This document shows, piece after piece, positions 161 through 41,600 of a stretch of 64,000 nucleotides of DNA. Source of the DNA: Deltaproteobacteria bacterium ADurb.Bin207 (GTDB lineage: Bacteria; Myxococcota_A; Polyangia; Polyangiales; Polyangiaceae); assembly GCA_002070115.1 (NCBI GenBank), contig MWCO01000018.1, forward strand, positions 1-64,000. Direction: 5' to 3'. Position 1 is the first letter of the stretch. Every line of letters starts with the position of its first letter. Below the pieces are notes generated by a model, which saw only the letters and a list, made by a program, of their open reading frames with translations, made no database searches and was not told where the DNA came from. The translations under genes were made by a program, and so were the position numbers.

Positions 161-919
161 TTACGCCAAGCTGCGATATCGCTCCGTCGCCACTTCTGTC
201 GTTCCCGTCGTCGTAGCATCCGTCGTCGCATCCGGCGTCTCGATCGGTGGGGGCGGAGGGATGTTTCTTACACTATCGAGCAAACCCGCAATCGCGGCTT
301 CTTCATTGATCTCCGGATCCATCCAATCGGAGTAGAGCATTCCTACCGCGCCGAAGTGAAACAAGAAAGAAAACGCTGCGATGATCGTGAATCGCCAATC
401 GATTTGAGAGGACAAACCGGATTGAACGGACACCGGGAGTTGGGGTTTGGGCTGCACGGGGGGAGGGGCCACGAATTGAAACAAAAACGTGATGTCCCCG
501 ATCACAATTTTGCCCCGCGCCTCCTCTGTCAGCGCAACTTGATAGGTTCCCTGCGGTCCTCGATGCGCTTGGCTTTTCAAAGTCTGCAAATCCGTGATGC
601 CCGATTGCAAGGCAATTCGGCCGGTCATCCCATCCAAATAATTCAAATGATATTGGGCTCGCTTCTTGTCCGAACCCACCAACTCGAACAACCGAAACGT
701 GGCCGGTACCCCCGGTGCGTTGATCACGAACATGTTTTTTTCGCTCGCCCCCACCATCACATGGGTCCTTTGCTTGACCACACGCTCTTCGATCACGCGA
801 CCGCCCTGCACGAGACCAATACGCAATACCTTTGGTCCCGTCGCTTGCGGCAAAGCTCGCATCACCGCCGTCATCTGCCCAGGACGACTTTTCGGGGGTT
901 CCGCGTAAGGTTGCGTCAT
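161..919 (-). CDS. GltG/PglI-like inner-membrane protein lacking the TonB-like C-terminal domain
   Basis: The 252-residue protein starts at an ATG preceded by GGAGG with good spacing. Residues 30-150 form the N-terminal cytoplasmic domain seen in myxobacterial PglI/GltG proteins (an FHA-like beta-rich fold, with the phrases VGASEKN and GKIVIGDITFLFQFV). One transmembrane helix lies at about 176-195, followed by a short acidic stretch and a Pro then Thr/Ala-rich tail. In M. xanthus this family continues into a periplasmic AgmX/PglI (TonB-like) C-terminal domain; here the frame stops after the Thr-rich linker, 33 bases before the inverted repeat. It is the last gene of the TPR operon. By analogy it would couple inner-membrane proton flow to the periplasmic TPR proteins. 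Family membership is fairly sure. Whether this is a natural short form or a truncation is open. Confidence 0.7.
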   Translation of the reverse strand: MTQPYAEPPKSRPGQMTAVMRALPQATGPKVLRIGLVQGGRVIEERVVKQRTHVMVGASEKNMFVINAPGVPATFRLFELVGSDKKRAQYHLNYLDGMTGRIALQSGITDLQTLKSQAHRGPQGTYQVALTEEARGKIVIGDITFLFQFVAPPPVQPKPQLPVSVQSGLSSQIDWRFTIIAAFSFLFHFGAVGMLYSDWMDPEINEEAAIAGLLDSVRNIPPPPPIETPDATTDATTTGTTEVATERYRSLA

Positions 920-1024
920 TTCCAATCCTCCAAACAATGATTACAACTTTCGCATCGTCTCGAGCCAGATGCAAGCCCAACGCTTCTGGTTGCATCCCGA
1001 TCGATAGTCCGCGTCTTATCTTGC

Positions 1025-1579
1025 CTATTCGACATCGACTCCACTTTCACCTTGGGGTTCCCATTGCACAAGCCGAATCAATTCCTCCACCCAATCATCC
1101 AACGCTTGACGCTTACGGCGTACCAACCGCTGGGCTTCCTTTGCGGCGGCCAGCGTGGATAGAACCCCCGCGGCCCCAATGGCAAATACGTCGAGAACCG
1201 CCGTGGTGAGACCTTGGCCCGCGATGAAAAGCCAGGCCGCTGCAATGAGGCAGCCAAAAACAGAAATCCGCGCACAAGCGGCATAGGTTTTCGTGTTGGC
1301 AGAAAGAGATATGTCGATCTCCGATAACACGACATTGACTTCCCCGCGCGCCACCTCATATTCACGAGTTTGCGCCAATGACCGCACGAGCTGTGTTTCC
1401 CAAGCGTCCGCCTCGCCCTGCATCGCTCGCGCCAAAATGCCCAACCCATGCCGCCACGACCGACAGGCCCGACAAAGCAAGTCAGGTTGAAGATTCAATG
1501 CCGTCGCTGCGAGCCGCAACTCCCACAGCGCCCACAGGATCGCAAATACGCTGCAGCACGAGGCTATCCACAAAGCCAT
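1025..1579 (-). CDS. Three-helix inner-membrane protein, possibly ExbB/TolQ/MotA-like
   Basis: About 184 residues; GTG-ATG gives two possible starts, three bases after the preceding stop codon. Hydrophobic segments lie near residues 1-25, 105-125 and 127-147, separated by a roughly 80-residue polar region, with a charged C-terminal tail. This is the topology of ExbB/TolQ/MotA proton-channel subunits, and the place in the operon next to a GltG-like gene would suit such a role. The usual small-residue and proline motifs of that family are not clearly present, so the assignment is from topology and context only. It could equally be an accessory membrane protein of the complex. Confidence 0.55.
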   Translation of the reverse strand: MALWIASCCSVFAILWALWELRLAATALNLQPDLLCRACRSWRHGLGILARAMQGEADAWETQLVRSLAQTREYEVARGEVNVVLSEIDISLSANTKTYAACARISVFGCLIAAAWLFIAGQGLTTAVLDVFAIGAAGVLSTLAAAKEAQRLVRRKRQALDDWVEELIRLVQWEPQGESGVDVE

Positions 1580-1585
1580 CACGTG

Positions 1586-1825
1586 TCAGAAAGGCTCTTT
1601 GGTAATGGCTTCCTCAATTTTGTTCAAGAAAGGCTGCCGAAGCTCCGACAACGTGATTTTCGGACGGATGCGCGCGACGTCCACCGCGGCGATGGGACGT
1701 TGCACGCGCCCCACGATGGTAACCTCGTTGAGGGTTATCACGCGGCCTTGTTTTTGCGCATGCGCGAACGATGATACACTCGTCAACAACAGTCCGATGA
1801 CGGTGGCAAAGCAGAAGTGTTTCAT
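1586..1825 (-). CDS. Small exported protein of the Glt-like operon
   Basis: 79 residues, start supported by AGAGGAA eight bases upstream. An N-terminal signal peptide (about residues 1-23, ending AHA) is followed by a 55-residue mature part with the phrases VTIVGRVQRP and LSELRQPFLNKIE. It lies 13 bases downstream of the TPR lipoprotein gene and upstream of the three-helix protein. Short exported proteins occupy a similar position (GltF) in the M. xanthus motility cluster, but the similarity cannot be tested here. It is probably periplasmic. The name recalls a secretin/TonB plug phrase (VTIVG), which may be chance. Confidence 0.6.
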   Translation of the reverse strand: MKHFCFATVIGLLLTSVSSFAHAQKQGRVITLNEVTIVGRVQRPIAAVDVARIRPKITLSELRQPFLNKIEEAITKEPF

Positions 1826-1838
1826 GTTGCATTTCCTC

Positions 1839-3203
1839 TCATTGACTTGCTGCTGGGGCCGCTGAAGCAGCAGGAGTCGCCGAGGTCGGGGATGCCGGCC
1901 CGCTGGGCTGTTTGGATTCCGCTTCGACCATTGCTTTTTTGGCTTTGGCGCGAATGATCAATTGCTCCACGTCGCTGCCCCGGGGATCGACCGAACGCCC
2001 CCGTAATTCCTTATATTTCTCAAAAGACGCGATGGCCGCGTCGACCTGTTGTACGGGGGTTTTTCCTGGATAGTTGTCGGAAAAAAGGAAAAGCAGTCCG
2101 ATATTGTAATGCACATGAATCAAGCTTGCATCTTTGGCGAGAACCCAATCGAATTCTCGTTTCGCTTCCGCAGGCCTTCCCATCAATCGATGCACATCGC
2201 CAAGGTTCAGGTGAGCCACGAGATTGTCGCGATTGTAGGCAAGCGCTCGCTCGAGCAGCGGCTGCGCCTTGGCTGCATTGCCCGACTCGAGATAGTAGGT
2301 CGCAAGCTGCACTCCAGCGTCGACCATATCCGGTCGCTTCTGAAGCACACTCTCGAGTTCGCCGATCGCCAACGCGCGGGCTCCCTCCTCCTTGTAGATG
2401 AGGGCGCGCAGCAGCCGCGCTTCGACATTGTCTTTGTCTCGCGGCGGGTTGTTGGGACCGAAACCATCGAGGATGGCTTGCAAGGCGTATTTGGCGAGGT
2501 CGAGCCTTCGGTTCCGGAAGTGATCCCGGGCCAACGTAATCATCGCGGGAGCGTAATTGGGGTTGGCTTTCAGCGCTTCCTGAGCAAGCTTTCTGGCGCT
2601 TTCCGTCTCGCGCTGCATCGATTTGATTTCCGCCAGGGCAGCGGCAACCGCGGCTGATTTCGGCATTTTGGCGTGACGTTCGGTCAGGAAGTGGTCAGCC
2701 TCCGCTGCATTTCCCTTTCTCGCCAATAACAAGCCGTAGGCCGTGATCGCCGGCTCGTAGTCCGTAACAATGGTGAACGCTTGTCGGTATCGTGCGAGAG
2801 CGTCGGCATCCCCAAGACGTTCAAGGATGACTCCAAGCGAATAATGAGCTTGGTATGCCTTGGGATCCTTCGAAATAGCATCCAAAAACAGTTTTTTCGC
2901 CTCCGCCAATTCGCCCCGCCCAAAAGCGCTGAGCGCCTGAAGATAGGGCTCTTTGGCCGCGTCGTTCATTTTTGGACGCTCTGCCATTGGAGCATCGGAA
3001 GACGAAGGGGCGTCTGAGATGCCCACTTGAATCCCTTGATCGGTCGTCACGGGCGTTCCCGCCGGTCCGGAAGGCTCCGACGTGCTCAGCGATCCAGGGC
3101 TTTTCGCGTCGCCTTGCTTGCCGCCACAGGCAGGAATCCACGCGGCAACGAAAAGTGATACCGCCGCTATCGCAATCGTTTTTGCGGGTTGGGTCTTCAT
3201 CAT
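1839..3203 (-). CDS. TPR lipoprotein, GltE/AglT-like
   Basis: 454 residues. The signal peptide ends in a lipobox (IPAC, Cys at about residue 26), so the protein should be lipid-anchored in the outer or inner membrane facing the periplasm. A Pro/Ser-rich linker to about residue 75 leads into a solenoid of tetratricopeptide repeats up to about 400, including AYQAHYSLGVILERLGD and NLVAHLNLGDVHRLMGRPAEAK. The C-terminal 40 residues are Ala/Pro/Ser-rich. Its ATG overlaps the stop codon of the upstream giant TPR gene by four bases, so translation is probably coupled. M. xanthus AglT/GltE is a TPR lipoprotein of similar length in the same gene order. Role inferred: scaffold between outer membrane and periplasmic parts of the machine. 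Confidence 0.8.
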   Translation of the reverse strand: MMKTQPAKTIAIAAVSLFVAAWIPACGGKQGDAKSPGSLSTSEPSGPAGTPVTTDQGIQVGISDAPSSSDAPMAERPKMNDAAKEPYLQALSAFGRGELAEAKKLFLDAISKDPKAYQAHYSLGVILERLGDADALARYRQAFTIVTDYEPAITAYGLLLARKGNAAEADHFLTERHAKMPKSAAVAAALAEIKSMQRETESARKLAQEALKANPNYAPAMITLARDHFRNRRLDLAKYALQAILDGFGPNNPPRDKDNVEARLLRALIYKEEGARALAIGELESVLQKRPDMVDAGVQLATYYLESGNAAKAQPLLERALAYNRDNLVAHLNLGDVHRLMGRPAEAKREFDWVLAKDASLIHVHYNIGLLFLFSDNYPGKTPVQQVDAAIASFEKYKELRGRSVDPRGSDVEQLIIRAKAKKAMVEAESKQPSGPASPTSATPAASAAPAASQ

Positions 3204-6200
3204 GGCACCACGGGAAGCGGATGAGGGAGTGGGTCGATCTGCGGCTGCTCGATGATTCCAGGACGACTGAGCAAAAACATGCGGTCGGTATAGGTGAACC
3301 CTGCGACGCCCTGAGAGTATTCTCGCAACTTGGCATCTCCGAGTACGTCGGTGAAAAACGCCAAACGTTCCACGGCACGGTCTATCGCTGGGTTGGAGAT
3401 GTTATACTTGCGCCCCAACGAGAAGGCTTCCACGTACCGGGTGACCATGACCTTGTCCGCGTCGGTAAGCTCCTTGTCCCGGGTTTGCCGCCAAACGTTT
3501 TGTCGATTGGTTCGGAATACGTCGGCTTTGTCCTGGTGTTCGGGGTCGTCGCTGGCTTCGAGCTTTTTCAGAAGCGCTTCTTCTTTGTCGGAGAAGAGCT
3601 TCAATGCTGGCTCGCGGGCGTTGTACATACCCGTGCGAAGAGAGTCATACAGCGATCCCTGCCGAGAACGCGCCGCCACCGCCCACTCTGGAGATATATA
3701 CACGTCGATCACGCGTTGCAGACGGTCGTGATATCGTTTGGCATCGGCAGCATCCGCCCGATAATCCCGGATGACATCGACTGTCGTGCCCTTGTAGCGG
3801 TGATGGCCCGTGTCGTAGTCGAATTTTTCTCGGATTTCTTGATCGAGGAGAGAAAATTCGGCTTCTGCGGCCATCGCGGCTTCCGCGGTGGAAACGGCTG
3901 AGCTTTGCCCATCGCTTTTCTTTGGAGCTACCGCTTTCCATTGTTCAAAAGCCGCAATCGTTTTCTTGTACCAGTCTTGATACTGGTTTCCTCCACCTAC
4001 TTTTTGAAGCTTCGCGGCGTTGTAAGAGGCGCGAACCACATACTTGGCCGCATCCCGGTTATTCTTGTTGCGAGCGTGGAAGGCCGTCATCGCCGTCAAC
4101 GCACGCTGTCGCGCCGCGCGGTTCGCCCCTTCATCCCGTCCACGCTCGTCCCATTCGTTCATTTCCCCACGCGCTACGATATACTCGGCCTCAGCTTTCT
4201 CTTGGGGAGTCGGCCCAAGAGACAAAAAGCGCTTTTGAAGCGTGGCCGTTTTTCCCTTATCACCCATGTTGGCGTATAACTCGAGGGCGAGCTTGGCTGC
4301 TTCCCGACGATCTTTTTGGTCGAAACGTTCGATTTGGCTGATCGTATCGTATTGCTCCGCGGCCCGTCGGTAGTCGAAAAATAGAATATACGCTTCGGAA
4401 AGCGCATTATGGGCTTGCTTGAGGTAGGTGAGACGTTCCTTGTATTTTTCGGGGTTCGGAGCCACGGGCGGAGATGCTTTGGGGTTGCCCTTTTCAAGAA
4501 CCACGAGGGTCTTTTCATCGCCGTAACGCTTGATGAAAAGCTCATACATTTCAATGGCTTTGTCGTATTCGCCGAGTTGCTTGTAGGCGATGGCGCCGTT
4601 GATCGCCGCCTCCGGGGCTTCGTTTCGATCCGGCGCGTTTTCCAAGGCCTTGCGGTATAACGCCGCGGCCTTTCTCCATTTTTCGTTGCGCTCGGGACCG
4701 TCGGGCATATTCTGCGCTTCATCGAATGCTTTTCTGGCGTCGCGGTACGCAGCCTCCTGCAACGTCGGGTTGATGAGCAGCGTTTCGGCAGTTTTTTGCT
4801 CTTCACTGACAGCACAGCTATTCGCTTTTTGTGCCTCGGCAAGCTTGGTACTTTGCTCGACGTCGCCCTCGATGTTGCTCATGGTGAGCAGACGTTCCCA
4901 GGCCCTGTAGCCATAGTCGGTTTTTCCGCATTCTTTTTGATAAATGGGCTCGTAGCGCTTTTTGGCTTCTCCGAACTGCCCATAAAAGAAGAAGGATTCG
5001 GCGACCTGGAACGCGAACATCGGCGATCTTTTGTTGATGTCGTGCTGTTCCGGCACCGTGCGGATATATTCTTCCTGCGATAAATTACGGAACCGAATCG
5101 CTGGCGGTATGGGATCCGATACCACCTTTCTATTGTCCCCCTCGCCGACGAATACGAGGTTATTTCTTTCCTCTAGCCCTTTGGCGCCGCTGGTCTCCTG
5201 CCAGACCCGATTCCGATCGTTTTGCACGAGGAAGGCCAGGTTGACAGCATAAAAGGCGGCAACTTCCAGGCGACGATCATCCTCGTTGGAATCGCGGACT
5301 TCCACGGCGGACTGCCGCGCGCGCAGCACATCGCCGATGGTCGGACTCTGCCCCGCAAGGACCTTGGTATACACGATCCAATGCCTCGCGTCGGCGAGCC
5401 AAAAACGCGACTCATAAGCGTCGGAGGCGTTTTCGTCTTGATCCAAGTACGCACTCCAGGCTCGTTCGGCCAGCTTGAATTCCGCCAGGGTTTTTTCAAG
5501 CTGAACGTTGCGCTCTGCCGCATCCCCCATCTGCTCGGCTTCTTGCAGGAAGGCGCGAGCGCGGTTGGTATGCTCAGCGGCGGCGCTTTGCAGCCCGCCA
5601 TGCACCAGGCGTTCTGCCATTTGTAAGGCTTCCGGATCATCCCGATTGGCATTGACCCACGGTGAATTACCAACATAAACGGCGAGTTTGCTTCGCGCTT
5701 CCAAAGCCTTGGCCGCGTTTTCCTTGCGTTCGACCGTGCCTTCCCGGGAGGTGCGCGTCAGCTCGTCGTAGGTGTCGGCGATACCTGCTTGAATCTCCGG
5801 GGCCTCCCGATGCATCGGCCATTTTTCAAGCATTTTCTCCGACAACTCGATGCGATTATGAAGCTGGTTGAGTTCTTTGTATTCGAGGGCAAGCGCCTTG
5901 TAGACATGGAATGTCCACGGCTTGTCCTGCGGGATCAATCCCGGATCCTGGATTCGATCGATCGCGATCCGCATCTTGCGTTCGATGATGGTCGGATCCG
6001 ACTCGAGATCTAAAACATCCGACCGAGGAATGAATGGCTCGCTGGCTTGTGGACCTGCGAAATCCACATACGTCAACGAGCCTGCAATATACGTGTACGC
6101 CTCGGAACGAAAATCTGCTCCTGGATCACCGGTTTTTTTCTCGACCTCGTCGGTATAGTGCAACAACTCGACGAATTTTCGAGTGGCCGCCTCATATCTC

Positions 6201-7405
6201 TGTTGTTTGAAGTACGTCCATGCGAGCTTGTACATGGATACGCCGTACAAGACTCCCTTTTCATTCGATGCTGCCTGCATCGACTTCTGATAAGCCGTGG
6301 CCGCTCGATTGAACGTATACGGGCCCGCTTTCGGATCGGCCTCGTCAAAGTACCAATCACCGATTTTCCACCAAATTTCAGCTACATAACGAGGATCCTC
6401 CCCTGGCTTGACGGTCTGGGGCAGGTAGGTGCAAGTATCTGGGAAGGGGCTGGTGTATGATAGCTCCCATTGCGTGGTATCAGCGGCCGCACGCCTTGGG
6501 TTCGGCTTCGCCTGCTTCGTCAAGTTTTCCGGTGTGGGAAAAACATGGCGCCACCCGACCCAATAATCCGCATCGTGGTCTTGTGGCACATCACCGACGA
6601 TATCTTTGTCCGGATCCCGCGGGTCCGTGGCGACAGGATACGGATAGTTGTTGTGACATACCAGAGCCCGCCATACCTGCTGCGCTTCTTCGAGCCGCTC
6701 CGAGTCGAACAAGGCGTGTCCCAAATAGTAGTAGACCGCCGCAAGTTCGTCGTATTGAGGGAATTCCTTGATGATGCGTTTGTAAAGCGCAATGCTCGGT
6801 TTGAGGTCGTCTCTTCCAATATCCGTCATGTTTTTGGCACGAGCGCGCTCATCATATAACGCGGCCAAGCGGAACATCGCGTTGGGCGTGGCTTCCGGAT
6901 CCGCCGTCTGCCCCGAATATTTTTCGATGAATGCCTCGAGCTTTTGAATGGCCTCGGCTCGCGCCTTCTCGAGTTCCGTACGCTCCGCAAGGATTTGTGA
7001 GTCCAACGAGGATAGGGTGCGACGACGCTGCTGTTCGTAATGATGCCGTACGATGCCCGTGATGGCATCTCGGAAGTCTTTGGCATCGCGCTGGTAGGTA
7101 TCGGCTTCCCGTTGAAGCAATGCCAGCGCTCGCAGTTTTTCTCTCGACGGCGCGGGCAGCGGTGAAGCTGCGGGACGACCGGATGCCTTTGCACTGTGCT
7201 CGCCTCCCATCGAGAGCGAGCCATCCGATTGAAAAAACTCCGCCAAGGTATCGTCGAGCGGACGCTCGAGGGCTGGATTCACTCCTGAATTGGTCGATGA
7301 CGAAGGTTGAGAATAGACCGTCGTCGCAGGGGTCACCGTGAGCAGTCCCGCGAGCAAGAGCAACGCCGATGTTCGAGCCACGTGCGTTTTTCGAAAGCGC
7401 TTCAT
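3200..7405 (-). CDS. Giant periplasmic TPR protein, GltD/AgmU-like
   Basis: 1401 residues from the ATG that has GGAGAG five bases upstream and starts a clear signal peptide (MKRFRKTHVARTS then a hydrophobic core, ending VYSQ); an upstream in-frame TTG is less likely. The protein is almost all helical TPR-type repeats, for example AAVYYYLGHALFDSERLEEA, LAWTYFKQQRYEAATRKF and INGAIAYKQLGEYDKAIEMY. M. xanthus AgmU/GltD is a periplasmic TPR protein of about 1200 residues that travels with the gliding machinery, and its paralogue NfsD works in spore-coat assembly. Gene order here (large TPR, TPR lipoprotein, small exported protein, GltG-like) matches that system. Which of motility, coat export or a third role applies cannot be read from the sequence. 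Confidence 0.82.
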   Translation of the reverse strand: MKRFRKTHVARTSALLLLAGLLTVTPATTVYSQPSSSTNSGVNPALERPLDDTLAEFFQSDGSLSMGGEHSAKASGRPAASPLPAPSREKLRALALLQREADTYQRDAKDFRDAITGIVRHHYEQQRRRTLSSLDSQILAERTELEKARAEAIQKLEAFIEKYSGQTADPEATPNAMFRLAALYDERARAKNMTDIGRDDLKPSIALYKRIIKEFPQYDELAAVYYYLGHALFDSERLEEAQQVWRALVCHNNYPYPVATDPRDPDKDIVGDVPQDHDADYWVGWRHVFPTPENLTKQAKPNPRRAAADTTQWELSYTSPFPDTCTYLPQTVKPGEDPRYVAEIWWKIGDWYFDEADPKAGPYTFNRAATAYQKSMQAASNEKGVLYGVSMYKLAWTYFKQQRYEAATRKFVELLHYTDEVEKKTGDPGADFRSEAYTYIAGSLTYVDFAGPQASEPFIPRSDVLDLESDPTIIERKMRIAIDRIQDPGLIPQDKPWTFHVYKALALEYKELNQLHNRIELSEKMLEKWPMHREAPEIQAGIADTYDELTRTSREGTVERKENAAKALEARSKLAVYVGNSPWVNANRDDPEALQMAERLVHGGLQSAAAEHTNRARAFLQEAEQMGDAAERNVQLEKTLAEFKLAERAWSAYLDQDENASDAYESRFWLADARHWIVYTKVLAGQSPTIGDVLRARQSAVEVRDSNEDDRRLEVAAFYAVNLAFLVQNDRNRVWQETSGAKGLEERNNLVFVGEGDNRKVVSDPIPPAIRFRNLSQEEYIRTVPEQHDINKRSPMFAFQVAESFFFYGQFGEAKKRYEPIYQKECGKTDYGYRAWERLLTMSNIEGDVEQSTKLAEAQKANSCAVSEEQKTAETLLINPTLQEAAYRDARKAFDEAQNMPDGPERNEKWRKAAALYRKALENAPDRNEAPEAAINGAIAYKQLGEYDKAIEMYELFIKRYGDEKTLVVLEKGNPKASPPVAPNPEKYKERLTYLKQAHNALSEAYILFFDYRRAAEQYDTISQIERFDQKDRREAAKLALELYANMGDKGKTATLQKRFLSLGPTPQEKAEAEYIVARGEMNEWDERGRDEGANRAARQRALTAMTAFHARNKNNRDAAKYVVRASYNAAKLQKVGGGNQYQDWYKKTIAAFEQWKAVAPKKSDGQSSAVSTAEAAMAAEAEFSLLDQEIREKFDYDTGHHRYKGTTVDVIRDYRADAADAKRYHDRLQRVIDVYISPEWAVAARSRQGSLYDSLRTGMYNAREPALKLFSDKEEALLKKLEASDDPEHQDKADVFRTNRQNVWRQTRDKELTDADKVMVTRYVEAFSLGRKYNISNPAIDRAVERLAFFTDVLGDAKLREYSQGVAGFTYTDRMFLLSRPGIIEQPQIDPLPHPLPVVP

Positions 7406-7448
7406 GCTTTCTCTCCATACAAAGTCAGACCGTTCGGTTTGACCGATG

Positions 7449-9815
7449 TCATTCGTCCATCGCGTCATCTAGGACTTCTCGCAATTCCTCATCGAGTAAC
7501 CGCTCGGACCGTGCTCGCTCGGATTGGAGCCTTCGCACGCGAATGAGCTGCGATTCTCGGGTTTCCCATGCTTGTTCGGTAATTCCGACTTCCGCATGCA
7601 TGACAATGCTGCGCATCCTGTCGCGAACGAGACCAAAGTTGCGCATGGCCACATGGCCTACGACCAGCCGTGCTTCTTCATCCAACTGCTGCAGTTGAGC
7701 GTTGAACTCCCCAAGCTTGGACTCCTCGGCGGCAATCGATAGCAATAAGGCCTTGGATTTTTCATCGACCTTATGATTGATATCGCGCAACGCAGCCTGA
7801 TACCGGGCCTCGACTTCGTCGGCGGAACGCAAAAGGGGTGCAATTCTTTGCGCGTATTGGGCGGCGGAATTGCCTGCCGCTCCTCGAGACGCAAGTTCGA
7901 CCTCTTTCGCCAACAACTGCTTGTACTGCTCGCGAACAGCCTGATCGTCGAAAACAGAGGCATCATCGAAGCCTGAGGCAATTCGCCCCTGACCCGCCTG
8001 TTGTCGAAGCTCGGCCAGACGCGCCTGATACCCCGTAAGCTCTCGTTCATGAGCGCCCAATTCTTCCTGGAATTGACGGATCGAAGCTGGATCGCGAACG
8101 ACACCGCGTGAAGCACTTTCGCGAATCACTCGTTGCAAAGCGTTGACGACCGAGTTGAGCGTGTCGATTTGCAGTTGAAGCTGCTGCACTTTTTGGGATG
8201 CCGAATTCCACCGATTTTCCGCTCTATTGTCCCGTTGTTGGAAGTCCGAGGAAGAGACGGGAAGATCGAGCACTTGGGCCTGTAGCGCACGACGTTGCTG
8301 GCGAACCGAGCCGATCTCACCGGAAAGCGATGAGGGCTCTTGCGCGTCGAGAGCATTGGCGAGCACGACGCGGGCTTTGGTGATTCCATGGATGGCGCCG
8401 ATGGCGGTTTGTTGACCGGCGCGGTACTCTGGGAACGCTTTGGAACGCCCTGCCGAATTCATGACCGCATGGAGCTTTTTCAAGGCGTCTTCGGAAGTGC
8501 GAAGGAGCATTCGGGTTTGGACGACTTCGTTGACGACCGCAAAAGCTTCTGGGCCATCGTCGGCCTCGCGCGCCCATTGGATGGCGAGAGGCGGTAGATT
8601 GCCCCCCGTTTCCGCGCTGATGAGTTGGTCTTCCACGAGTTTGTCATAAAAGACGGCCGGATCATCGGAACCGGAGAGAAAGGAGGAAACACGAAGGAGT
8701 TGTGGCTCGAATTGAGAGCGGATGTCTTCGAAGGTCGTGAGCGATTTTCGGTATTGGCCGGAGCGAAGCTCGAGGTCTCCTCGCAAAAGTGAGGCTTCCG
8801 CGGTACGTTCTCCGTCCGGATCGACAAGCATGAGGATTTCGAGCGCTCGTTGGGCTCGAACAACGTCGTTCATCTGCATGTGGGTGGCTGCCACTTCGAA
8901 CAGCGCATTGCTGAACTCCGGTGACTGCCGATCGATGTGGTTATAGGCTTCGACGGCTTCGGGCCACTGATTCGTTTCGTAGTGTAGACGACCGATGGCG
9001 AGCCAACCGAGATCGACGACGTGTCGGTGCTCTTTGGTAGATGCCGGTAGCTGCGTCACCTGGCGAAAAGCTTCGATGGCGGAGGCGTAGGGTTTCGAGG
9101 ACTCTTGCGGGCTTTTCGCCGTTTCCGTAGAAGCAGCGAGAGCAGTTTTGGCTTCGCGTAGCGCAATGACCCCGAGCAAGTACCGGGCTTGGGGGTAGAA
9201 ATCACTTTGCGCCGGGACAGCCGATAAGGATGCTTTGGCGCCGGACAGATCCTGCTGGGCGAGCTGCACGCGGCCCTTGGCGTAGTACAAGAGAGGATTG
9301 GAAGGCGCCTCCCCCAATTGCTGTTTCAGATGTTCCAACGTCTCGATGTCACGAGTGCGGATGGCAATGTCCGTGAGTCGTGCGAGCGCTTTGGGGTGGA
9401 ACGCCTGCACACGCCGAGAGCGCTTGTCCTCCACAATGGTTCGGAACACACGCCGCGCCGAGGTAAGCTGCTCGGATTGGTAATAGGTTTCGCCAAGAAG
9501 AAAGAGCGCTTCGGCGTATACCGTATCGTTATTTCGGTATTTCTCGACAATTTGGCTAAAAACGACACTTGCCCGGTCGAAATCTCTTGTGAGAAGTAGT
9601 AGATTGCCGTCCGCCAGCCGCTGCTCCGCCGTTTGTTCGGGGCGTGACGCCCGCGCCATGGCATCCTGAATCGTATTGATACCGTTGCGGTACTGCGTGA
9701 TGGTACGCTGCGCGGACGCGTAAGCCTCGTCGGCGTTCTGCGCATTCGCCCCATTGACCGATGCGGTGAGGGCAAAGAAAGCGACCATCCCCACGAGGCG
9801 CGTTCGCGAGTGCAT
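7449..9815 (-). CDS. Periplasmic TPR and coiled-coil protein of the Glt-like operon
   Basis: 788 residues from the ATG with GGGGGAAAG upstream and a clean signal peptide (MHSRTRLVGMVAFFALTASV, cut near NAQ). Residues 60-400 hold TPR motifs such as AEALFLLGETYYQSEQLTSA and WLAIGRLHYETNQWPEA. From about 470 to the end the sequence is rich in Gln, Glu, Leu and Arg with heptad spacing and should form long coiled coils. The start lies one base after the stop of the upstream gene. A large TPR protein next to the AgmU-like gene is usual in deltaproteobacterial clusters of this kind. It probably stacks on the giant TPR protein in the periplasm. Confidence 0.75.
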   Translation of the reverse strand: MHSRTRLVGMVAFFALTASVNGANAQNADEAYASAQRTITQYRNGINTIQDAMARASRPEQTAEQRLADGNLLLLTRDFDRASVVFSQIVEKYRNNDTVYAEALFLLGETYYQSEQLTSARRVFRTIVEDKRSRRVQAFHPKALARLTDIAIRTRDIETLEHLKQQLGEAPSNPLLYYAKGRVQLAQQDLSGAKASLSAVPAQSDFYPQARYLLGVIALREAKTALAASTETAKSPQESSKPYASAIEAFRQVTQLPASTKEHRHVVDLGWLAIGRLHYETNQWPEAVEAYNHIDRQSPEFSNALFEVAATHMQMNDVVRAQRALEILMLVDPDGERTAEASLLRGDLELRSGQYRKSLTTFEDIRSQFEPQLLRVSSFLSGSDDPAVFYDKLVEDQLISAETGGNLPPLAIQWAREADDGPEAFAVVNEVVQTRMLLRTSEDALKKLHAVMNSAGRSKAFPEYRAGQQTAIGAIHGITKARVVLANALDAQEPSSLSGEIGSVRQQRRALQAQVLDLPVSSSDFQQRDNRAENRWNSASQKVQQLQLQIDTLNSVVNALQRVIRESASRGVVRDPASIRQFQEELGAHERELTGYQARLAELRQQAGQGRIASGFDDASVFDDQAVREQYKQLLAKEVELASRGAAGNSAAQYAQRIAPLLRSADEVEARYQAALRDINHKVDEKSKALLLSIAAEESKLGEFNAQLQQLDEEARLVVGHVAMRNFGLVRDRMRSIVMHAEVGITEQAWETRESQLIRVRRLQSERARSERLLDEELREVLDDAMDE

Positions 9816-9816
9816 G

Positions 9817-10605
9817 TCACTTTCCCCCAATCGACAGGGTTGCCTTGGCCGCGGGTTTCGGCGAAGAGGCTGGAGTACCACGGCTGTCCAGGGAACCGAC
9901 GTTTTCGATGAAGCGAACGGCGGGCCGTTGTTCCAGGGGAGTGGTTACGCCGCCTTTTTCGTACGCGATGGTTCGCAAGGTGAGGGCGTTGCCATCGGTA
10001 ATCGTAAACGAATGGCTAGAGCGCACCTCGAACTTGTACCCTCGAAGATAGGAAAAGACCCCGTAGCCGTGTCCTCGTAGTTCAAGGACGACTTGCAGCG
10101 TGTGGTCGCCCGGGGGAATGGACCCTTGGTAAATGGGGATCGTTTTTTGATCCGCTAGCGCCCCGGTATCGTCGCTGCGGTTGTACTGGACGGCTCCATC
10201 CAGGACGAAAACTGCGCGGGTCAATCGAAAAGCGCCCGACATCTCGTTGTCGAATGTGATATCCGCCCGCGCGCTTGCCGAACCACCACCAAGGATCGAA
10301 TCGGAAAGGAGCGAGAGCCGGGTATGGCTGCGCCGGATCTGTTCTTTGAGTTCATCGATACGTTGTTCCAGGTCTCGCAAGCGAATGGAATAGGTGGACC
10401 CATCCATGGTGTCGGGGGGGCCGGCAGTTGTTGCTTCTGGGGCCGATGCGGCAGGTACTGACGACGAAGCTGGGGCAGCCGAAGAGGATGCCGCGGCGCT
10501 TTCGGTTTCTTTGGGTGTTTGTGCCCCTACAGGTTTGGCCCCGAGCAAAAGCACAAGTGTCACGATAGCTATGGTTTGAGCAAGTCGCGTGATTGTCCGT
10601 GTCAT
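9817..10605 (-). CDS. Exported coiled-coil plus beta-domain protein, first gene of the Glt-like operon
   Basis: 262 residues from the ATG that begins a signal peptide (MTRTITRLAQTIAIVTLVLL, ending VGAQ); the longest frame adds 34 residues that do not look like a leader. After a Ser/Ala-rich linker (40-75) comes a short coiled coil (SIRLRDLEQRIDELKEQIRR), then a beta-rich domain of about 150 residues (ADITFDNEMSGAFRLTRAVF, PPGDHTLQVVLELRGHGYG). Similar proteins in myxobacteria are, as I recall, often misnamed dihydrolipoamide acetyltransferase because of the Ala/Pro-rich part; no lipoyl or catalytic domain is visible. It is transcribed first in the seven-gene operon. Function unknown, probably structural in the periplasm. 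Confidence 0.7.
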   Translation of the reverse strand: MTRTITRLAQTIAIVTLVLLLGAKPVGAQTPKETESAAASSSAAPASSSVPAASAPEATTAGPPDTMDGSTYSIRLRDLEQRIDELKEQIRRSHTRLSLLSDSILGGGSASARADITFDNEMSGAFRLTRAVFVLDGAVQYNRSDDTGALADQKTIPIYQGSIPPGDHTLQVVLELRGHGYGVFSYLRGYKFEVRSSHSFTITDGNALTLRTIAYEKGGVTTPLEQRPAVRFIENVGSLDSRGTPASSPKPAAKATLSIGGK

Positions 10606-10952
10606 TGTTGACCCCAATCTTCGACGGAGCAGCCCCTCGGACTGTTGTCGGCCGAGCGCATATTCGATAGACCCCCGTAATGTAAATGGGGAGGGCTCAC
10701 TTTTCAACCGTGTTCAGAGGTTGATGCAAAATCGTCCTATCCGTTGCTGTCGATCGTGACATGGTCGTTGCTTTTCCGGCCGATAGAACACTATTTTACT
10801 TGTTACCCAGACCATGAAGGCCGAACCCCGTCCTTTTCAACCCCCTGGCCGGCGGAGGGACCCACGGAAAATAATATGAGTTATCGCTTCGAATCGCACC
10901 ATCAACCACAACCTTCCGGTCGTGTTTTCTGACGACCGAATGAGGATTTGGC
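10606..10952. other. Divergent intergenic region between the Glt-like operon and the ECF sigma gene
   Basis: This 347-base stretch must hold promoters for both directions. It includes AT-rich pieces (AATAATATGAGTTATC near 10870 and ACTATTTTACTTGTTA near 10790) but no clear -35/-10 pair that I can defend. Near the sigma gene lies a 7-bp inverted repeat, listed separately. No convincing small gene was seen. Confidence 0.5.
10917..10938. promoter_or_regulatory. Perfect 7-bp inverted repeat just ahead of the ECF sigma start
   Basis: CGGTCGT at 10917-10923 pairs with ACGACCG at 10932-10938 around the 8-base loop GTTTTCTG. It ends four bases before the GAGG ribosome binding site (10942-10945) of the sigma gene, so it could be an operator for autoregulation or an mRNA hairpin that limits translation. 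There is no T-tract, so it is not a terminator. Confidence 0.5.
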
Positions 10953-11477
10953 GTGGTCGCTCGCGGAAGACAGGATGTGGCGGACGAAGTGTTGATGCTG
11001 CGTTTCCAACGCGGGGATGTGAGCGCCTTTTCTTTGTTGGTGCAGCGCCACCAAACCCCGCTTTTCAACTATATTTTGCGGATGGTCCATTCTAGGGAAG
11101 TAGCCGAACCCCTGGTCCAACAAGCCTTGATCGACATGGTTCGTGGGTCCCCCGGGTTCAAACACGATGGTGCCTTTGGCTCGTGGGCTTATGGTATCGC
11201 TCGACGAATATGCCTTCCTTACTCGACAAAAGCACAAGAAACCTCCGTAATTAGCGATAATCCTCAGCCCGGAACCGATCCCATCCTCGCGGCCCTCGAA
11301 GCCCTCCCTACGGAACAACGCGAGGTGTTTTTGCTCAAAAAAATCGCGCGTTTGTCCTTTAAAGATATCTCCGGGATGACCGATACCGATGAGCAAACCG
11401 TAAAAAGCCGAATGCGATTCGTCTTGGACCACCTCCAAGCCGTCTTGCATTCTGTCGAAGAAGATGCTTCATCGTAG
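10953..11477 (+). CDS. ECF-type RNA polymerase sigma factor
   Basis: 174 residues, GTG start with GAGG seven bases upstream. Region 2 spans about residues 15-85 (FSLLVQRHQTPLFNYILRMV, then FGSWAYGIARR) and region 4 about 110-160 (LPTEQREVFLLKKIARLSFK, then a helix-turn-helix ending EQTVKSRMRFVLDHL). There is no region 1 or 3, as expected for the extracytoplasmic-function class. The usual acidic DLVQE in region 2.2 reads PLVQQ, a modest divergence. The anti-sigma gene follows 23 bases downstream, so the pair is probably one operon and the factor is held inactive at the membrane. Divergence from the envelope-machine operon makes that operon a plausible target. Confidence 0.88.
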   Translation: MVARGRQDVADEVLMLRFQRGDVSAFSLLVQRHQTPLFNYILRMVHSREVAEPLVQQALIDMVRGSPGFKHDGAFGSWAYGIARRICLPYSTKAQETSVISDNPQPGTDPILAALEALPTEQREVFLLKKIARLSFKDISGMTDTDEQTVKSRMRFVLDHLQAVLHSVEEDASS

Positions 11478-11500
11478 TATTCTGCCGAGCGGATGAACGA

Positions 11501-12562
11501 ATGGACTGTGGACAGTTCGACCAAATCGTCATGGACTTGCTCTACGGAGAAACAAGCGAATCGTCCTCCGTGGAGGCAAAACGTCATGTCGATCAATGCG
11601 AACGATGCGCGGCCGTACTGGCGGATCTGCGAACTGCCAAGTCAACGCTGAATCTCCCCATGGAACAAGCTCCGGAAAGCATCGAGCCCAAGGTTCTCGA
11701 AGCGGCTCGACAGTATCAAAAGGAGATTCCCTGGCCGCGTCGCCTCGGTCGCTGGATTTCATGGGTTGGCGGATATGCCATGCGCCCACAACTCGCCATG
11801 GCCGCGTTGCTATTGCTCATGCTCGGCTCGAGTCTGCTCCTGATCCGTGCTCGTCCAGGCGCGGAACAAGTGGATGTAGTGCGGGTCGTGGAGCAAGGAG
11901 TACCCCAACCCGAAACCTTGGAAGGAAGCCATGCGATCGAGCCGCACCAATTGCCTCCTTCCGAAGATGAACCGTTGGATCGTCGAAAAGATAGTCGAAA
12001 TGGTACCGTGGAACCCCCGGACACGGCTCGTACCAAGACGTCGAAGGCTGAAGCTGACGCCCCTTCGACCGCCCCAACCTCATCCACCGCACCACCGGCA
12101 GCCGATGGATTCTCGGATGCCATGGCGATGTATCGAGCCAAAGACTACGCCAACGCGTACCGCGCTTTCGATCAGGTGGTTTTGAAAGGCGGCCCCAATG
12201 CACCCGCGGCCGCGTTATTGGCTGCCAAATCCGTTCGTGCCAGTTCCGGTTGCGCCCACGCGCTTCCGCGCTTCGAATCGGTTTCTTCACGCTATGCCGG
12301 ATCGTCCGAAGCGATCGAAGCCAGATGGGAGACGGCTTCCTGTGCGAGGATCATAGGGGACTTGACACGGGCTCGATTGATCTACAGGGACCTCGCCCAA
12401 ATCGAAGGGTTGCGGGAACGAGCGGAAAACGAATTGGCCCGTATCTCCACCGGAAGCACCCCACCACGGATTCCTCCACCCTCGACCCCCGATGTCGGCC
12501 GGACGGATGTTCCCGGCAACCCAACTCCTCCCCCATCGACCAGCTCCCCGCAGGACCAATGA
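11501..12562 (+). CDS. Zinc-finger anti-sigma factor with long periplasmic TPR-like domain
   Basis: 353 residues. The N-terminal 50 residues carry the anti-sigma zinc motif (H-x3-C-x2-C, HVDQCERC near residue 28). A single transmembrane helix lies near residues 97-117 (MAALLLLMLGSSLLLI). The rest is outside the cytoplasm: a Pro/Ser/Thr-rich linker (about 130-200), then a helical segment with TPR character (FSDAMAMYRAKDYANAYRAF, and ARLIYRDLAQIEGLRERAE), and a Pro/Thr tail. Typical anti-sigma factors of this class are about 200-250 residues, so the periplasmic sensor part is unusually long. It likely binds the neighbouring ECF sigma factor and releases it when the envelope state changes. Given the TPR machine next door, direct sensing of it is possible but only inferred. 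Confidence 0.8.
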   Translation: MDCGQFDQIVMDLLYGETSESSSVEAKRHVDQCERCAAVLADLRTAKSTLNLPMEQAPESIEPKVLEAARQYQKEIPWPRRLGRWISWVGGYAMRPQLAMAALLLLMLGSSLLLIRARPGAEQVDVVRVVEQGVPQPETLEGSHAIEPHQLPPSEDEPLDRRKDSRNGTVEPPDTARTKTSKAEADAPSTAPTSSTAPPAADGFSDAMAMYRAKDYANAYRAFDQVVLKGGPNAPAAALLAAKSVRASSGCAHALPRFESVSSRYAGSSEAIEARWETASCARIIGDLTRARLIYRDLAQIEGLRERAENELARISTGSTPPRIPPPSTPDVGRTDVPGNPTPPPSTSSPQDQ

Positions 12563-12608: not shown

Positions 12609-14390
12609 ATGAATCGTCGGTTCGGTGTGGCTTGCGCCATGCTCGCCCTTTCCATGTCCTGTGCCCGCCATGATCCGCATCAGGTGTCCGGCATTGGCGT
12701 TCGACTCAATTCCCCCCGTACACTTTTGGATGGGGTCGATACGGTCACTCTGTCTATCGTTGATGCCCACGAGCTTGGCGTGGTTTGCTCGGAAAACTCG
12801 GGCCTCGTAACCGTCGGTGAACTGAAATCGGGGCTCCTTTCCATCGACCTCCAAGCGCAAGAAGAAGTTGTCAAAGTGCCGCTGTCGCGCACGATGCCCA
12901 ACGGTGCACCTTGCCCGAACCAAGGCGTATTTTGCTCCGATGAAATCACACTTCCCACCGATCCTTCCAAACTCCTTGTGTTTCAAGCGGAAGGACGAGC
13001 GGGGACAACTCCTGTTGCGGTTGGATGTACGACAGCGGCCGTCAATTCCGACCCGTTTTATGTGAATTTATCGATGTTTCGTTATGTGAAACCAGCGATT
13101 TGTGGAAACGGATCGCTGGAAGTGGGAGAGCAATGCGAAAGGGGTGAAATCAATTGCGACGATCTGTGCCGAACGGTCGAGTTCTTAATCTCCACCGACC
13201 ATGAGGGGCCATCGAACCAGCGCATCGAAAACGCTCCCCCAGGAAGTAAACAAGGCGTTCGCATGGCTTGGAGTCATGCGCCCCAAGCCGCCAATCCCAG
13301 TCCCCTTCATCTGGTTTTCGGCGATACGAATTACGGCAAAACAGGGACGGGACCGGAGATCAATTATCGACAGCTTGGGCAACACGCCGAACCCATCGAA
13401 TACCCGCCGCTTTTATCCTCGCAGATCCGCTTGCCGTTGCTGGGAGCGAAAACTCCAGGATTCGATCAGCGCCCCCGCACCCAGGCCGCCGCCGCGATCG
13501 GGCTCATGTCCGACGGCTCTTTTGTCGTGGCTTACGAAGATGACCGCCTAAGCACCGGTCCCAATATCTCGTTTACCCCGATCTCGATGGATGCGTCACT
13601 GCCGCGAAGCGATGAAGTATCCATCAATACCCTCGGCGTCGATGCTTCTGGCAGTCCCGCCGTGGCTGGAGGACCCACGGACCGGGCGCTGGTCGCTTGG
13701 GTCGACCAGGCAGGACGTCGAATTCGGGCTCGGATATGGGCCGTGACGGGTTGGATCTCTTCCTCGGAAACAACCTTGTCGGCGCAAGAAGGTGATTCCC
13801 CTCGTATCGCGGGTTGGAACGAGGGGTGGGTGGTGGTCTGGCATGGCCGCTCGAAACAGGACAACGACGACATCATGGCGGTGCGGATTTCTCAAACTGG
13901 AGAAGTGGGAGCACCGTTTTCCGTGAATACCGAGACGAAAGATGTGCAGCAACAACCCGATGTCGCTGCCCTTCCCACGGGAGAAGTTGCCGTGGTGTGG
14001 AACAGCGCCGGACGTATTTTCTTGCAACGTTTTGATGCATCAGGGCAACCGATCGCTGGCGATCAGTCCGCGCCCGTCAACGATGATTCCGCGATGGGCG
14101 AAAACCCGGCGATCGCGGCTTCACCGTTGGCTGCTGGTTTTTTCGCGATATCGTGGCAGACTGCCGCAGGGATTCGCGCCCGTCTCATCGATCGATCTGG
14201 CGATTACTTACCCAATGCAGTGGATGGTCAGACGGGATCCTTTTTGGTTAATCGCGACGATGTGAACGGAATGCGCTCCCATCCTTCGGTCGCGATCGGT
14301 GGTGCGGGCCATATCGTTTTCGCATGGGAGGATAGCGCAGCCGACCATAGCGGGATATACGCGCGACGGTTTCCCTTGCCCGTTCGCTGA
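12609..14390 (+). CDS. Large lipoprotein with Cys-rich insert and beta-propeller-like repeats
   Basis: 593 residues. The signal peptide ends in a lipobox (SMSC, Cys at about 18). Residues 165-190 hold a myxobacterial Cys-rich motif (CGNGSLEVGEQC then CDDLC). From about 240 onward there are repeated units of the form G-x-VVAYEDD, ALVAWVDQAGRRIRAR, WVVVWHGRSKQDNDDIMAVR, VAVVWNSAGRIFLQRFDASG and IVFAWEDSAADHSGIYARR, which suggest a six- or seven-bladed propeller like those seen in surface proteins of this phylum. It lies 46 bases downstream of the anti-sigma gene, in the same direction. No enzymatic motif is seen. Probably a surface lipoprotein of unknown partner. Confidence 0.75.
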   Translation: MNRRFGVACAMLALSMSCARHDPHQVSGIGVRLNSPRTLLDGVDTVTLSIVDAHELGVVCSENSGLVTVGELKSGLLSIDLQAQEEVVKVPLSRTMPNGAPCPNQGVFCSDEITLPTDPSKLLVFQAEGRAGTTPVAVGCTTAAVNSDPFYVNLSMFRYVKPAICGNGSLEVGEQCERGEINCDDLCRTVEFLISTDHEGPSNQRIENAPPGSKQGVRMAWSHAPQAANPSPLHLVFGDTNYGKTGTGPEINYRQLGQHAEPIEYPPLLSSQIRLPLLGAKTPGFDQRPRTQAAAAIGLMSDGSFVVAYEDDRLSTGPNISFTPISMDASLPRSDEVSINTLGVDASGSPAVAGGPTDRALVAWVDQAGRRIRARIWAVTGWISSSETTLSAQEGDSPRIAGWNEGWVVVWHGRSKQDNDDIMAVRISQTGEVGAPFSVNTETKDVQQQPDVAALPTGEVAVVWNSAGRIFLQRFDASGQPIAGDQSAPVNDDSAMGENPAIAASPLAAGFFAISWQTAAGIRARLIDRSGDYLPNAVDGQTGSFLVNRDDVNGMRSHPSVAIGGAGHIVFAWEDSAADHSGIYARRFPLPVR

Positions 14391-38637: not shown

Positions 38638-41600
38638 TCATGGCTTCACGTCGATCATCGTGGCTCCGGTTCGACCAAATATTTCGGGCTGGTACATCGA
38701 TTCAACACGCGTCGAAGGCATGACGAATCGCCCGATGGTCGTGGCTCGAGCGAGGTATCGATAGTGGTACATGCCCGCGGCCATGTGGTCGACGAAAAAC
38801 AGCGCGCGGTCATCGCGCAGTTCCTGCCGGAACCAACTAGGCAACAACACGCCACCTCTCGCAAGAGCGTCCTGTTGTTCGCGGGGAGAGGGGATATCGT
38901 CCAGCGCATCGTCTTCTCCCCCGAAACCGGCTATGGCGAGCGACCCGGCGGTAGTCGCTAACGATGCATCGATCGCCTCCAAACCAGCGGGAATGGGATC
39001 TTCGATGATCACATAGTCGTGTGGTTGCGGGGCGACGACGAGCAGGTCCACGAGAACCAGTTCGCCACCGCGAGGGGAAGGAAATCGGTCCATGCCGCTG
39101 GGCACACTTCGGATGGAGGAAGCCAGGGATTCGGGAGTCACGACGCGCATTGCTTTTTGAACGAAAAATCCGCGGTCGATCGGTTCTTTGGGAAGCTGTT
39201 TGCGTGCGTAACGGAGCCGGGCTTCGTAGTGCAGGGTGCCTTTGCCGTTGCCTCCACGCTGAAACGCCAAGGTGTTGCCTCCAGCCTTCACCATTCGACT
39301 TGCAGGCAGAATCGTTTCCGTGGACTTGACGCTTCGCCCGGTCATGGCTTGTTGCAAGATCTGCTCATCGCCCAACCATACGGTTGCGGTAAAGTCCGGT
39401 TCTTCAAATTCCTGCGCCTTTCGATACTCGTCGAGAGCGAGCAGGGCGTATGCGGCTTCTTGTGTGTTTCGCCAAGTGCCTTGTTGCCTCGCCCCGAGCA
39501 GACCGCGGGTCATGGGCTCTGCCAGCGCATGATTCTTCTTGACGGAAAGAAGTGCGCGAAGCACCAGCGCATTGGTTCGCGTCGTCGAGTCCATCAATTC
39601 TGCGTAAGCATCACCAAGGTTTTCGGTGACCAAGGCCTGGTTGCCTTGAACGCGAATATGGCCTTCGATATCCCTTATGAGTTCGTCGCGTCCCTTTTCA
39701 TCTCCGCCACCCATGGCCATGGCGTGAGCCAAATACGCTTTGGCAAAGAGGGGAAGATCGGCGCGTTGATCAAATAGCCGGTTCATATAACCAGGGTCGG
39801 ATACCCCCATCTCCGCGAGGATATCCATGACGAACGCGGCGGTCGTCAGCCCATGGGAAGCCGTTTCATAATCATCGAGATATCGTCGAAGATAGGTTCT
39901 ACCGTTTTCGATTGTCTTTTTGGGAACGGAAGCCCCCGCTTTTTTCGCATGATACAGGCTCCACAAGGCATACGCGCTCACCCATGGATGGCTGGTTCTC
40001 GATTCGTCCCACAGCCCAAATCCCCCATCGTAGCGCTGACGTCGCACGAGCTTCGTAACGGTATTCGTGATGAATGCATCCGTGTTTTTGGGAAGGGGAA
40101 GGGAGTAGAGCCGGGCCAGTTCTCGCAAGGGAATCAGTGGCACCAAACGGCTGGCGAGTTGTTCCGTGCATTCATACGGGTATTCCGTGAGATACTCCAC
40201 ACTGCCCGCGAGACCTACGAGCGCTGTCGATGCCACTGACACATTGATGCTCCCCACATCAGTGCGAATGGCGGAAAGATCTCCCAGCATTTCTCCGGTG
40301 GCTGAACGCGTGGAACCGTATAACGCAACGCTTTCGAGCGAAGTCGGAGCGCGCACCGCCTTGGTGATTTCAACGCTGTCTTGTTCTCCTCCGCCCTGCA
40401 CGTGAAAGCGGACTTTGGCATTACCCACCGAGTTCGCGCGAAACCGGAAGCGCACCTCGCGAGATTGCCCCTTATCCAATTCGACTTGGCGCACCGACTC
40501 TCCCACGAGTTCCAACCCTTGCACGGTTGCTTTCACGTCAATGGCCGACTTGGGCAGTGTTTTCGACGTAAGTACGACTCCGGCGTCGATCTCGTCGCCG
40601 GCTCGGAGAACACGTGGAAACGCTGGCCGCGCGAGCAACGGAAGACTGGTGGTGACGGTCGATTGTCCAAAGCCGAATTGGTCGGTAGCACCCACGACGA
40701 CCGCCATGATGCGATAGCTGGTTAGGCTGTCGGGTAGTTTGAAGGTTGCCTTGGCCTTTCCCGATTCATCCGTGATGAGGGATGGGTTGAAATAAACACT
40801 CTGCCGGAAGTCGCTGCGTGCAGCGCCTCCACCTCCCCCATCGAGTCCCTTGTCTTCTCCGACCGTGCTTGCGAAGGGGCTCAAGGTGAGACGAGCCAGA
40901 TCGGTGCGTGCTTCGGTGAATCCGACGCGCAGAGGATGGGGCTCGGTAAATATGGGGATCGGATCGGGCGTTTTGTAGTCAGTCAGCATGAGAACGCCTT
41001 CATCGACGGCATACAAAGTGACCTCTGCGCGTTGGCCTTTTCCTGCGCGATCACGGATCTGAAGGTCCACGGCTACCTGTTCGCCCGGTCGATAATCCTT
41101 TTTGTTTGCGTTCACCTCGACGTTCAAGCGCTTGGATTCAGGGTTGATTTGAAGATTTGCGTAACCGATGCGGAACGCTGGAGCGCCGACGTCTGGAGCG
41201 TTCCATTGGGCAGGAGCGGCTTTCGAACGCCCCCGCAGCAGCACGACCGATACGTACGCGTTGGGATGGAAGTCGGCGGTGATGGGGATCGACAGCGTTG
41301 GCATCGATCCGTGCAACTGCATTCGTCGATGAGAATAAATCCCCGCACGCTCCACGGTGACGAGCGCTTCGGCGTTTTGGAAAGGAGATTTGACCAGGAT
41401 GCGTGCCGTTTGTCCCACCTCATAAGACGTTTTGTCAGGAACCAGTTCCACCCGCATATCATCGTGTTCTGCCCAACCGGACTCACCGCTTCCCGTAGCG
41501 TATAGATACGTGGAAGCTGCCACGGGATTGCCTCGAGCGTCTTTGGCTTTGGCCCGGAGAATGAAATACCCAGCGGTGGGGACCTTCAGGTTGCAGCTCG

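Follow-up and report, generated by a model that had tools for sequence, protein, structure and literature searches.

The first 64,000 nucleotides of contig MWCO01000018.1 (C18) of Deltaproteobacteria bacterium ADurb.Bin207, a member of the Polyangiales with a 6.55-Mb assembly in 220 contigs, are here called the window; its position 1 is the end of the contig. The window opens with a minus-strand row of seven genes that encode a predicted envelope machine rich in tetratricopeptide repeat (TPR) proteins. Gene order and protein phylogeny show this operon to be orthologous to the mglA-linked G4 cluster of Myxococcus. On this evidence we are dealing with the Polyangiales form of G4, a cluster already known though still unexplained, rather than with a new paralogue; it is a cousin of the gliding (Glt) and spore-coat (Nfs) machines. 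Its function we infer, with fair probability, to be that of a proton-driven envelope scaffold that serves polysaccharide export through an outer-membrane polysaccharide export (OPX) protein and a beta-barrel of the type used for biosurfactant polysaccharide (BPS).

The seven-gene operon and its place among Glt-like machines

The operon, the contig end and the divergent genes upstream are laid out as follows.

9817-10605, minus strand: CC, a periplasmic protein with a signal peptide, a coiled coil and a beta-sandwich; signature of the G4-type machine
7449-9815, minus strand: C, exported TPR/coiled-coil protein, GltC-like
3200-7405, minus strand: D, giant exported TPR protein, GltD homologue of the G4 clade
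1839-3203, minus strand: E, TPR lipoprotein, GltE-like, with a lipoprotein-type signal ending in ACGG
1586-1825, minus strand: F, small exported protein of 79 amino acids (aa) in the GltF position
1025-1582, minus strand: TM3, three-helix membrane protein with a predicted ExbB/TolQ/MotA fold
161-919, minus strand: G, truncated; GltG-like N-terminal half with a conserved domain, one transmembrane helix and a proline-rich linker
1-160, no strand: contig end, repeat-like sequence interrupting gltG
10953-11477, plus strand: extracytoplasmic function (ECF)-type sigma factor; an alternative start at 10977 is possible
11501-12562, plus strand: anti-sigma factor with a zf-HC2-like N-terminus, one transmembrane helix (residues 97-115) and a periplasmic TPR-like C-terminus

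Neighbouring genes in the row mostly overlap or nearly abut. A first-pass annotation made from the DNA letters had called these seven genes and the divergent sigma/anti-sigma pair, and had likened their order to that of the Glt/Nfs machines; the genes proved real, with refined coordinates, and the likeness held. Window C matches the NCBIfam GltC model (2.8e-17, 62.7 bits; equivalog cut-off 450, far from reached) and window E the GltE model (8.7e-21, 74 bits; equivalog cut-off 225, likewise far from reached). At the sequence level, the homology of C and E to GltC and GltE is therefore beyond chance, and the seven genes are homologous to the Glt/Nfs core C-D-E-F-G. Across the phylum, 139 of 188 genomes match the GltE model and none scores above its cut-off, so that this model is unusable for labelling paralogues. 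A PDB sequence search with C returned only generic or designed TPR/coiled-coil proteins. F shares 34-68% identity with its Polyangiales equivalents and, like the Myxococcus gene in the matching slot, ends in EPF, while G is 55-68% identical to its family relatives. No FHA domain was found in window G by Pfam search.

The order CC-C-D-E-F-x-G, contig ends aside, recurs in the 19 relatives for which the locus was retrieved and in Minicystis rosea and Sorangium cellulosum So ce26. D has matches in 70 of the 76 genomes of the order, C is present in every relative examined, and CC leads the operon in all of them. CC is also found in 261 of 377 Myxococcota genomes, usually as a single copy, and has no relatives among the viral contigs searched. 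Nothing in the PDB matches CC by sequence. Its AlphaFold2 model (pLDDT 79) consists of one long helix and a beta-sandwich of the common Ig/transthyretin-like kind, for which no structural match was found at E <= 0.001 and Z-scores were middling; since the fold is common and the matches are weak, we claim no function for CC.

The phylogeny of D, built with a quick method and containing some long branches, places 39 CC-linked D proteins, that of the window included, on one side of a branch with an SH-aLRT support of 100, and GltD, NfsD, G5 and a second copy from the same genome (contig C8) on the other. The D protein of the window groups with those of Minicystis and Sorangium, which points to a genome in or near the Polyangiaceae. 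The proposal of the first-pass annotation, a third paralogous machine that is neither gliding nor spore coat, is borne out to this extent: D, which would have had to fall inside the GltD or NfsD clade to overturn it, lies outside both. The C8 copy is part of the genome's second Glt-type machine, a separate and canonical Glt-like cluster within C8:48000-67900 (L226) that has the order C-D-E-G(FHA), with a GltI-like gene for a giant TPR protein next in line (GltC 277 bits, GltG 289 bits, FHA 1e-12).

Myxococcus xanthus has four GltD homologues, namely G1 (Glt), G3 (Nfs), G4 (MXAN_1922) and G5 (MXAN_1327) (PMC3169522). All four are found in the Myxococcus-type genome G401, at loci L223 (G1), L224 (nfsA-H), L225 (G5) and L143/L222 (G4). 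The record of G401 that holds L143, BNCN01000011.1, is labelled Comamonas sp. KCTC 72670, but the genome is of Myxococcus type, its MglA being 99% identical to that of M. xanthus. The G4 locus of G401 reads mglB-mglA-CC-C-D-E-F-G-cNMP-S-barrel-OPX, where cNMP denotes a cyclic-nucleotide-binding protein, the barrel is of WzpB type (421 aa) and the OPX protein is of WzaB type (204 aa). M. xanthus WzaB also has 204 aa (PMC9601211), and a published MXAN_1916 query ends at aa 421 (PMC9603273). Counting from MXAN_1926 (MglB) to MXAN_1915 (WzaB) fits the published anchors 1925 (MglA), 1922 (gltD homologue), 1916 (WzpB) and 1915 (WzaB), with the numbers between anchors deduced and the order taken from the Myxococcus-type genome rather than from M. 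xanthus.

With the M. xanthus G4 cluster (MXAN_1924 to MXAN_1915 in this deduced numbering), the Polyangiales operon shares the order CC-C-D-E-F-G-S-barrel-OPX and the D clade. It differs in having the ECF/anti-sigma pair upstream, where Myxococcus has mglBA, and in the presence of TM3 in the slot that separates F from G; on contig C5, described below, gene calling gave no cNMP-binding gene in the interval from the G C-terminus to S. The Glt machine (G1/G2) with its AglRQS motor likewise has GltC-D-E-F-G homologues and a TPR-rich envelope bridge, whereas the window operon has a D of another clade, a G without FHA domain and no gltH, gltI or gltJ seen in the operon, and the window-type machine instead has a barrel and OPX protein of the polysaccharide-export type. 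None of GltA, GltB, GltH, GltI, GltJ and GltK was found in the operon, and no dedicated genome-wide search for them was made. Nfs (G3), which is known to move polysaccharide, shares the paralogous C-D-E-F-G core but differs in D clade, has NfsA/NfsB rather than CC upstream of C, and has an NfsH-type barrel that does not appear in the order seen here.

Probable continuation of the operon on contig C5 and the export genes

Window G ends after 258 aa in the repeat-like contig end ('HGDTEARRHGG'), while the G proteins of relatives have about 460-480 aa. The missing C-terminal half is encoded on contig C5 (459-1124), where the AgmX/PglI tail scores 62 bits, above cut-off. It is followed by S, by a barrel gene (433 bits; BBP2_2 above cut-off; 18-strand type) and, beside the latter, by a gene for a short OPX lipoprotein of about 195 aa (243 bits; Poly_export and SLBB above cut-offs). 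In relatives, too, G is followed by S, then by a barrel gene (product about 450 aa) and the gene for a short OPX lipoprotein. By gene content, C5 appears to continue the operon, and the physical join across the gap between C18 and C5 is presumed. The first-pass annotation had noted that beta-barrel genes were absent; that statement does not stand, as a barrel and OPX gene accompany the G C-terminus on C5, and the apparent lack of both barrel and motor arises because the contig begins at window position 1. The interruption of gltG may be either an insertion or a misassembly at the contig end. Bases 1 to about 510 of C5 appear foreign and were read by eye, without confirmation from a family search, as an FGE-sulfatase-like gene on the opposite strand.

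S-barrel-OPX follows G in Polyangiales, Myxococcaceae, Archangium and Myxococcota metagenome-assembled genomes (MAGs). In some G4 operons the interval between G and S also encodes an exported protein of very large size, 1.3 to 1.8 thousand residues, together with a cNMP-binding protein (L293, 6921-10802; L296, 5412-10829). Comparison of gene content shows that the operon can be written, across the phylum, as CC-C-D-E-F-[ExbB-ExbD-ExbD or TM3 or nothing]-G-S-barrel-OPX.

The C5 proteins have the features of the translocons formed by a D1D2-OPX protein and an 18-strand barrel: a coupled barrel gene, and an OPX protein that carries both a Poly_export and an SLBB domain and stays within the length limit of about 280 aa. 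In this they resemble WzaB/WzpB, EpsY/EpsX and ExoA/ExoB, where a short OPX lipoprotein with both domains is likewise encoded beside a BBP2-type barrel, but here the pair lies at the end of a Glt-like operon and not in a polymer biosynthesis cluster. On contig C91 (1-12000; L248) the same genome has a distinct polysaccharide cluster, which comprises a short OPX protein, a barrel, Wzz-type proteins and a sugar transferase of its own; contig C26 encodes a Wzz-domain protein of about 760 aa with no obvious polymer cluster around it. In M. xanthus, wzaB mutants behave as BPS-pathway mutants, and WzaB is needed for BPS (PMC7310880); MXAN_1915 has been termed an orphan OPX gene (PMC7484181). A WzaB orthologue of Sandaracinus has been reported inside a polymer cluster. 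In the open full-text literature on MXAN_1918 and MXAN_1921 to 1925, subscription papers being outside the scope, we found no study that treats the G4 genes together with WzaB.

Motor genes, the three-helix protein and the genes upstream

The first-pass annotation had also stated that no AglRQS motor was present. That holds for the window but not for the genome, which has three MotA_ExbB genes and, on contig C40, two divergent ExbB-ExbD-ExbD triads side by side in the AglRQS layout (L093, C40:22000-41000, positions 7550-11903). Such a divergent pair of triads was also observed in Sorangium, Minicystis and genomes G012 and G057. In G201 and several MAGs, an ExbB-ExbD-ExbD triad lies inside the G4 operon, between F and G; in the Myxococcaceae G4 operon this slot is empty. 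In ExbB trees, the AglRQS-type motor and the minus-strand C40 triad form one clade, set apart at 100/100, and the second Myxococcus triad (M2, MXAN_3003-5 type), the plus-strand C40 triad and the in-operon G4 motors group together at 99/97. The AglRQS-type proteins of G401 have 245, 162 and 193 aa, against 245, 162 and 194 aa for M. xanthus AglR, AglQ and AglS; the assignment of the two G401 loci (L281/L282) to M1 and M2 is based on these lengths and on the number of complete sets, of which there are just two. M2 may accordingly be read, from these trees, as the G4 motor moved to another locus, a reading in line with the reports that MXAN_3003 makes no contact with GltG or NfsG and that MXAN_3004 is dispensable for sporulation (PMC3858216).

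TM3 occupies the slot that holds the full ExbB-ExbD-ExbD motor in other lineages. No Pfam match was found for it, but TM3 proteins of sister families align to ExbB profiles with an hhalign probability of 98.6% (E 6e-15); the window's own family gives 1.8% alone and 88% in a joint alignment. In the AlphaFold2 model (pLDDT 82.9) the helices are ordered as in TolQ, and the 33 best Foldseek matches are all ExbB/TolQ/MotA proteins, with E-values above 0.001 (best 0.046). A VIA-align comparison with ExbB gave a Z-score of 12.5 over 183 residues, in a protein class whose helical nature inflates Z. On its model, TM3 is an ExbB/TolQ-fold protein with three transmembrane helices. It shares fold and helix order with the ExbB/TolQ/MotA proton channels but lacks a Pfam match, the conserved AglR-type motor motifs GLLGT and NTAFGL, and an ExbD partner in the operon, and we read it as a putative relic or non-conducting ExbB-like subunit. 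The gene and helices of the earlier 'three-helix protein' are real, then, but its predicted fold places a motor-type protein within the operon itself.

In most Myxococcota loci examined outside the Polyangiales (L142, L143, L147-L151, L181, L209 and others), mglBA lies directly upstream of the G4 operon, with less than 1 kb between mglA and CC in 19 of 20 such loci. The polarity GTPase and the G4 machine are neighbours. The window operon has no mglBA directly upstream and has the ECF/anti-sigma pair there. Its sigma factor scores above the Pfam cut-offs for Sigma70_r4_2 and r2, has regions 2 and 4 only, and is accompanied by a membrane anti-sigma factor. An ECF sigma gene stands divergently beside CC in 17 of the 20 Polyangiales loci with enough upstream sequence, the exceptions being L049, L050 and L053. 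Envelope-stress control, which the first-pass annotation had put forward, may apply here, with this conserved adjacency in its favour and, on the other side, the mglBA neighbourhood of lineages outside the Polyangiales and the negative promoter search given below. Near the pair lie genes for a 593-aa secreted protein (12609-14390) and an 844-aa PMT_2-type glycosyltransferase (14477-17011), both kept in many relatives.

Proposed function and competing explanations

In the model that we favour, the periplasmic TPR proteins C, D and E would, together with CC, bridge an inner-membrane platform, made up of G, TM3 and the M2-type proton motor encoded on C40, to an outer-membrane end consisting of the D1D2-OPX/18-strand-barrel translocon. 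Energy from the motor would pass through G and the TPR bridge to the barrel and there drive, gate or move the polysaccharide that is secreted, in the manner in which spore-coat glycan is moved by AglRQS-Nfs. These parts would then form one complex whose motor powers polymer export or movement. The polymer would most likely be of BPS type, because BPS in M. xanthus depends on WzaB, the orthologous OPX protein. TM3 may be what is left where the in-operon motor once sat. It is probable that the ECF/anti-sigma pair monitors the state of the machine or of the envelope from the periplasmic side and tunes expression accordingly; it would in this way control the operon.

Several observations weigh against this model. 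gltG is interrupted in the present assembly, and TM3 of the window's family is too divergent for a match to ExbB at the sequence level. A search for a shared ECF promoter between the divergent genes gave no signal: top-scoring dyads occurred in 8 of the 18 regions and, after shuffling, in 7, in a test that is weak for GC-rich DNA. In G012, which we take to be a Sandaracinus-type genome, some 0.66 Mb separate the OPX gene from the D cluster, an exception among the genomes examined. BPS biosynthesis genes are absent from the operon, and none was identified in the genome by way of the Wzz-type proteins on C26 and C91.

Membership in the gliding (Glt) or spore-coat (Nfs) machinery proper was considered and rejected on the basis of the D tree and the G without FHA domain. 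We hold it to be extremely improbable: the core order C-D-E-F-G is indeed shared, yet the D protein falls outside the GltD and NfsD clades, the genome keeps a canonical Glt-like cluster on C8, and in M. xanthus the G4 and M2 mutants glide normally, motility being unaffected by disruption of MXAN_1922 (PMC3169522). Decay of the machine in this organism, with an insertion that splits gltG and leaves the operon non-functional, would account for the truncation of gltG in repeat-like sequence and for the foreign stretch, read by eye as FGE-sulfatase-like, that opens C5. Every other gene has an intact frame, however, and the two breakpoints coincide with ends of contigs in an assembly of 220 contigs, which makes misassembly likely and decay a quite unlikely explanation.

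The two remaining alternatives concern what the machine does. A static scaffold, in which the complex merely clamps the OPX/barrel translocon, would suit a TM3 that has neither motor motifs nor an ExbD partner in the operon, and would suit the motor-free operon of the Myxococcaceae; we nevertheless consider it unlikely, as these genomes retain an M2-type triad at another locus, and in the ExbB trees it clusters with the motors found inside G4 operons. It is similarly improbable, in our view, that the machine handles a non-polysaccharide cargo, in protein or lipid transport or in envelope maintenance, with the OPX and barrel genes placed in the operon for expression only. The function of G4 is unassigned, the OPX gene is apart from the D cluster in the Sandaracinus-type genome, and protein or lipid cargo has been proposed for other Glt-like machines (PMC3858216), but S-barrel-OPX follows G in nearly all other lineages examined, across classes, and BPS requires WzaB.

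Returning to the motor-driven exporter, we tentatively suggest, as a possibility held with less confidence than the function proposed above, that G4 and M2 could constitute a dedicated proton-driven exopolysaccharide secretion machine, a motorised Glt-type bridge feeding an OPX/barrel translocon, that is ancestral to the Myxococcota. In the Polyangiales, a non-conducting ExbB-like subunit would have replaced the in-operon motor, the working motor would have moved beside the AglRQS-type motor, and an ECF sigma factor with a TPR-bearing anti-sigma factor would have taken over control from the mglBA neighbourhood. Since 2011, neither the Myxococcus G4 cluster nor the M2 motor has had a function assigned to it, and tests of M2 with Glt and with Nfs matched it to neither. 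Comparison of gene order now pairs G4 with M2 and both with the WzaB/WzpB exporter, which suggests a testable job for the two gene sets. If true, outer-membrane polysaccharide export can be motor-driven, and the machines for gliding and for the spore coat would have an exporter among their relatives.

Elsewhere in the window, positions 38641-44397 encode a bacterial alpha-2-macroglobulin of 1919 aa.

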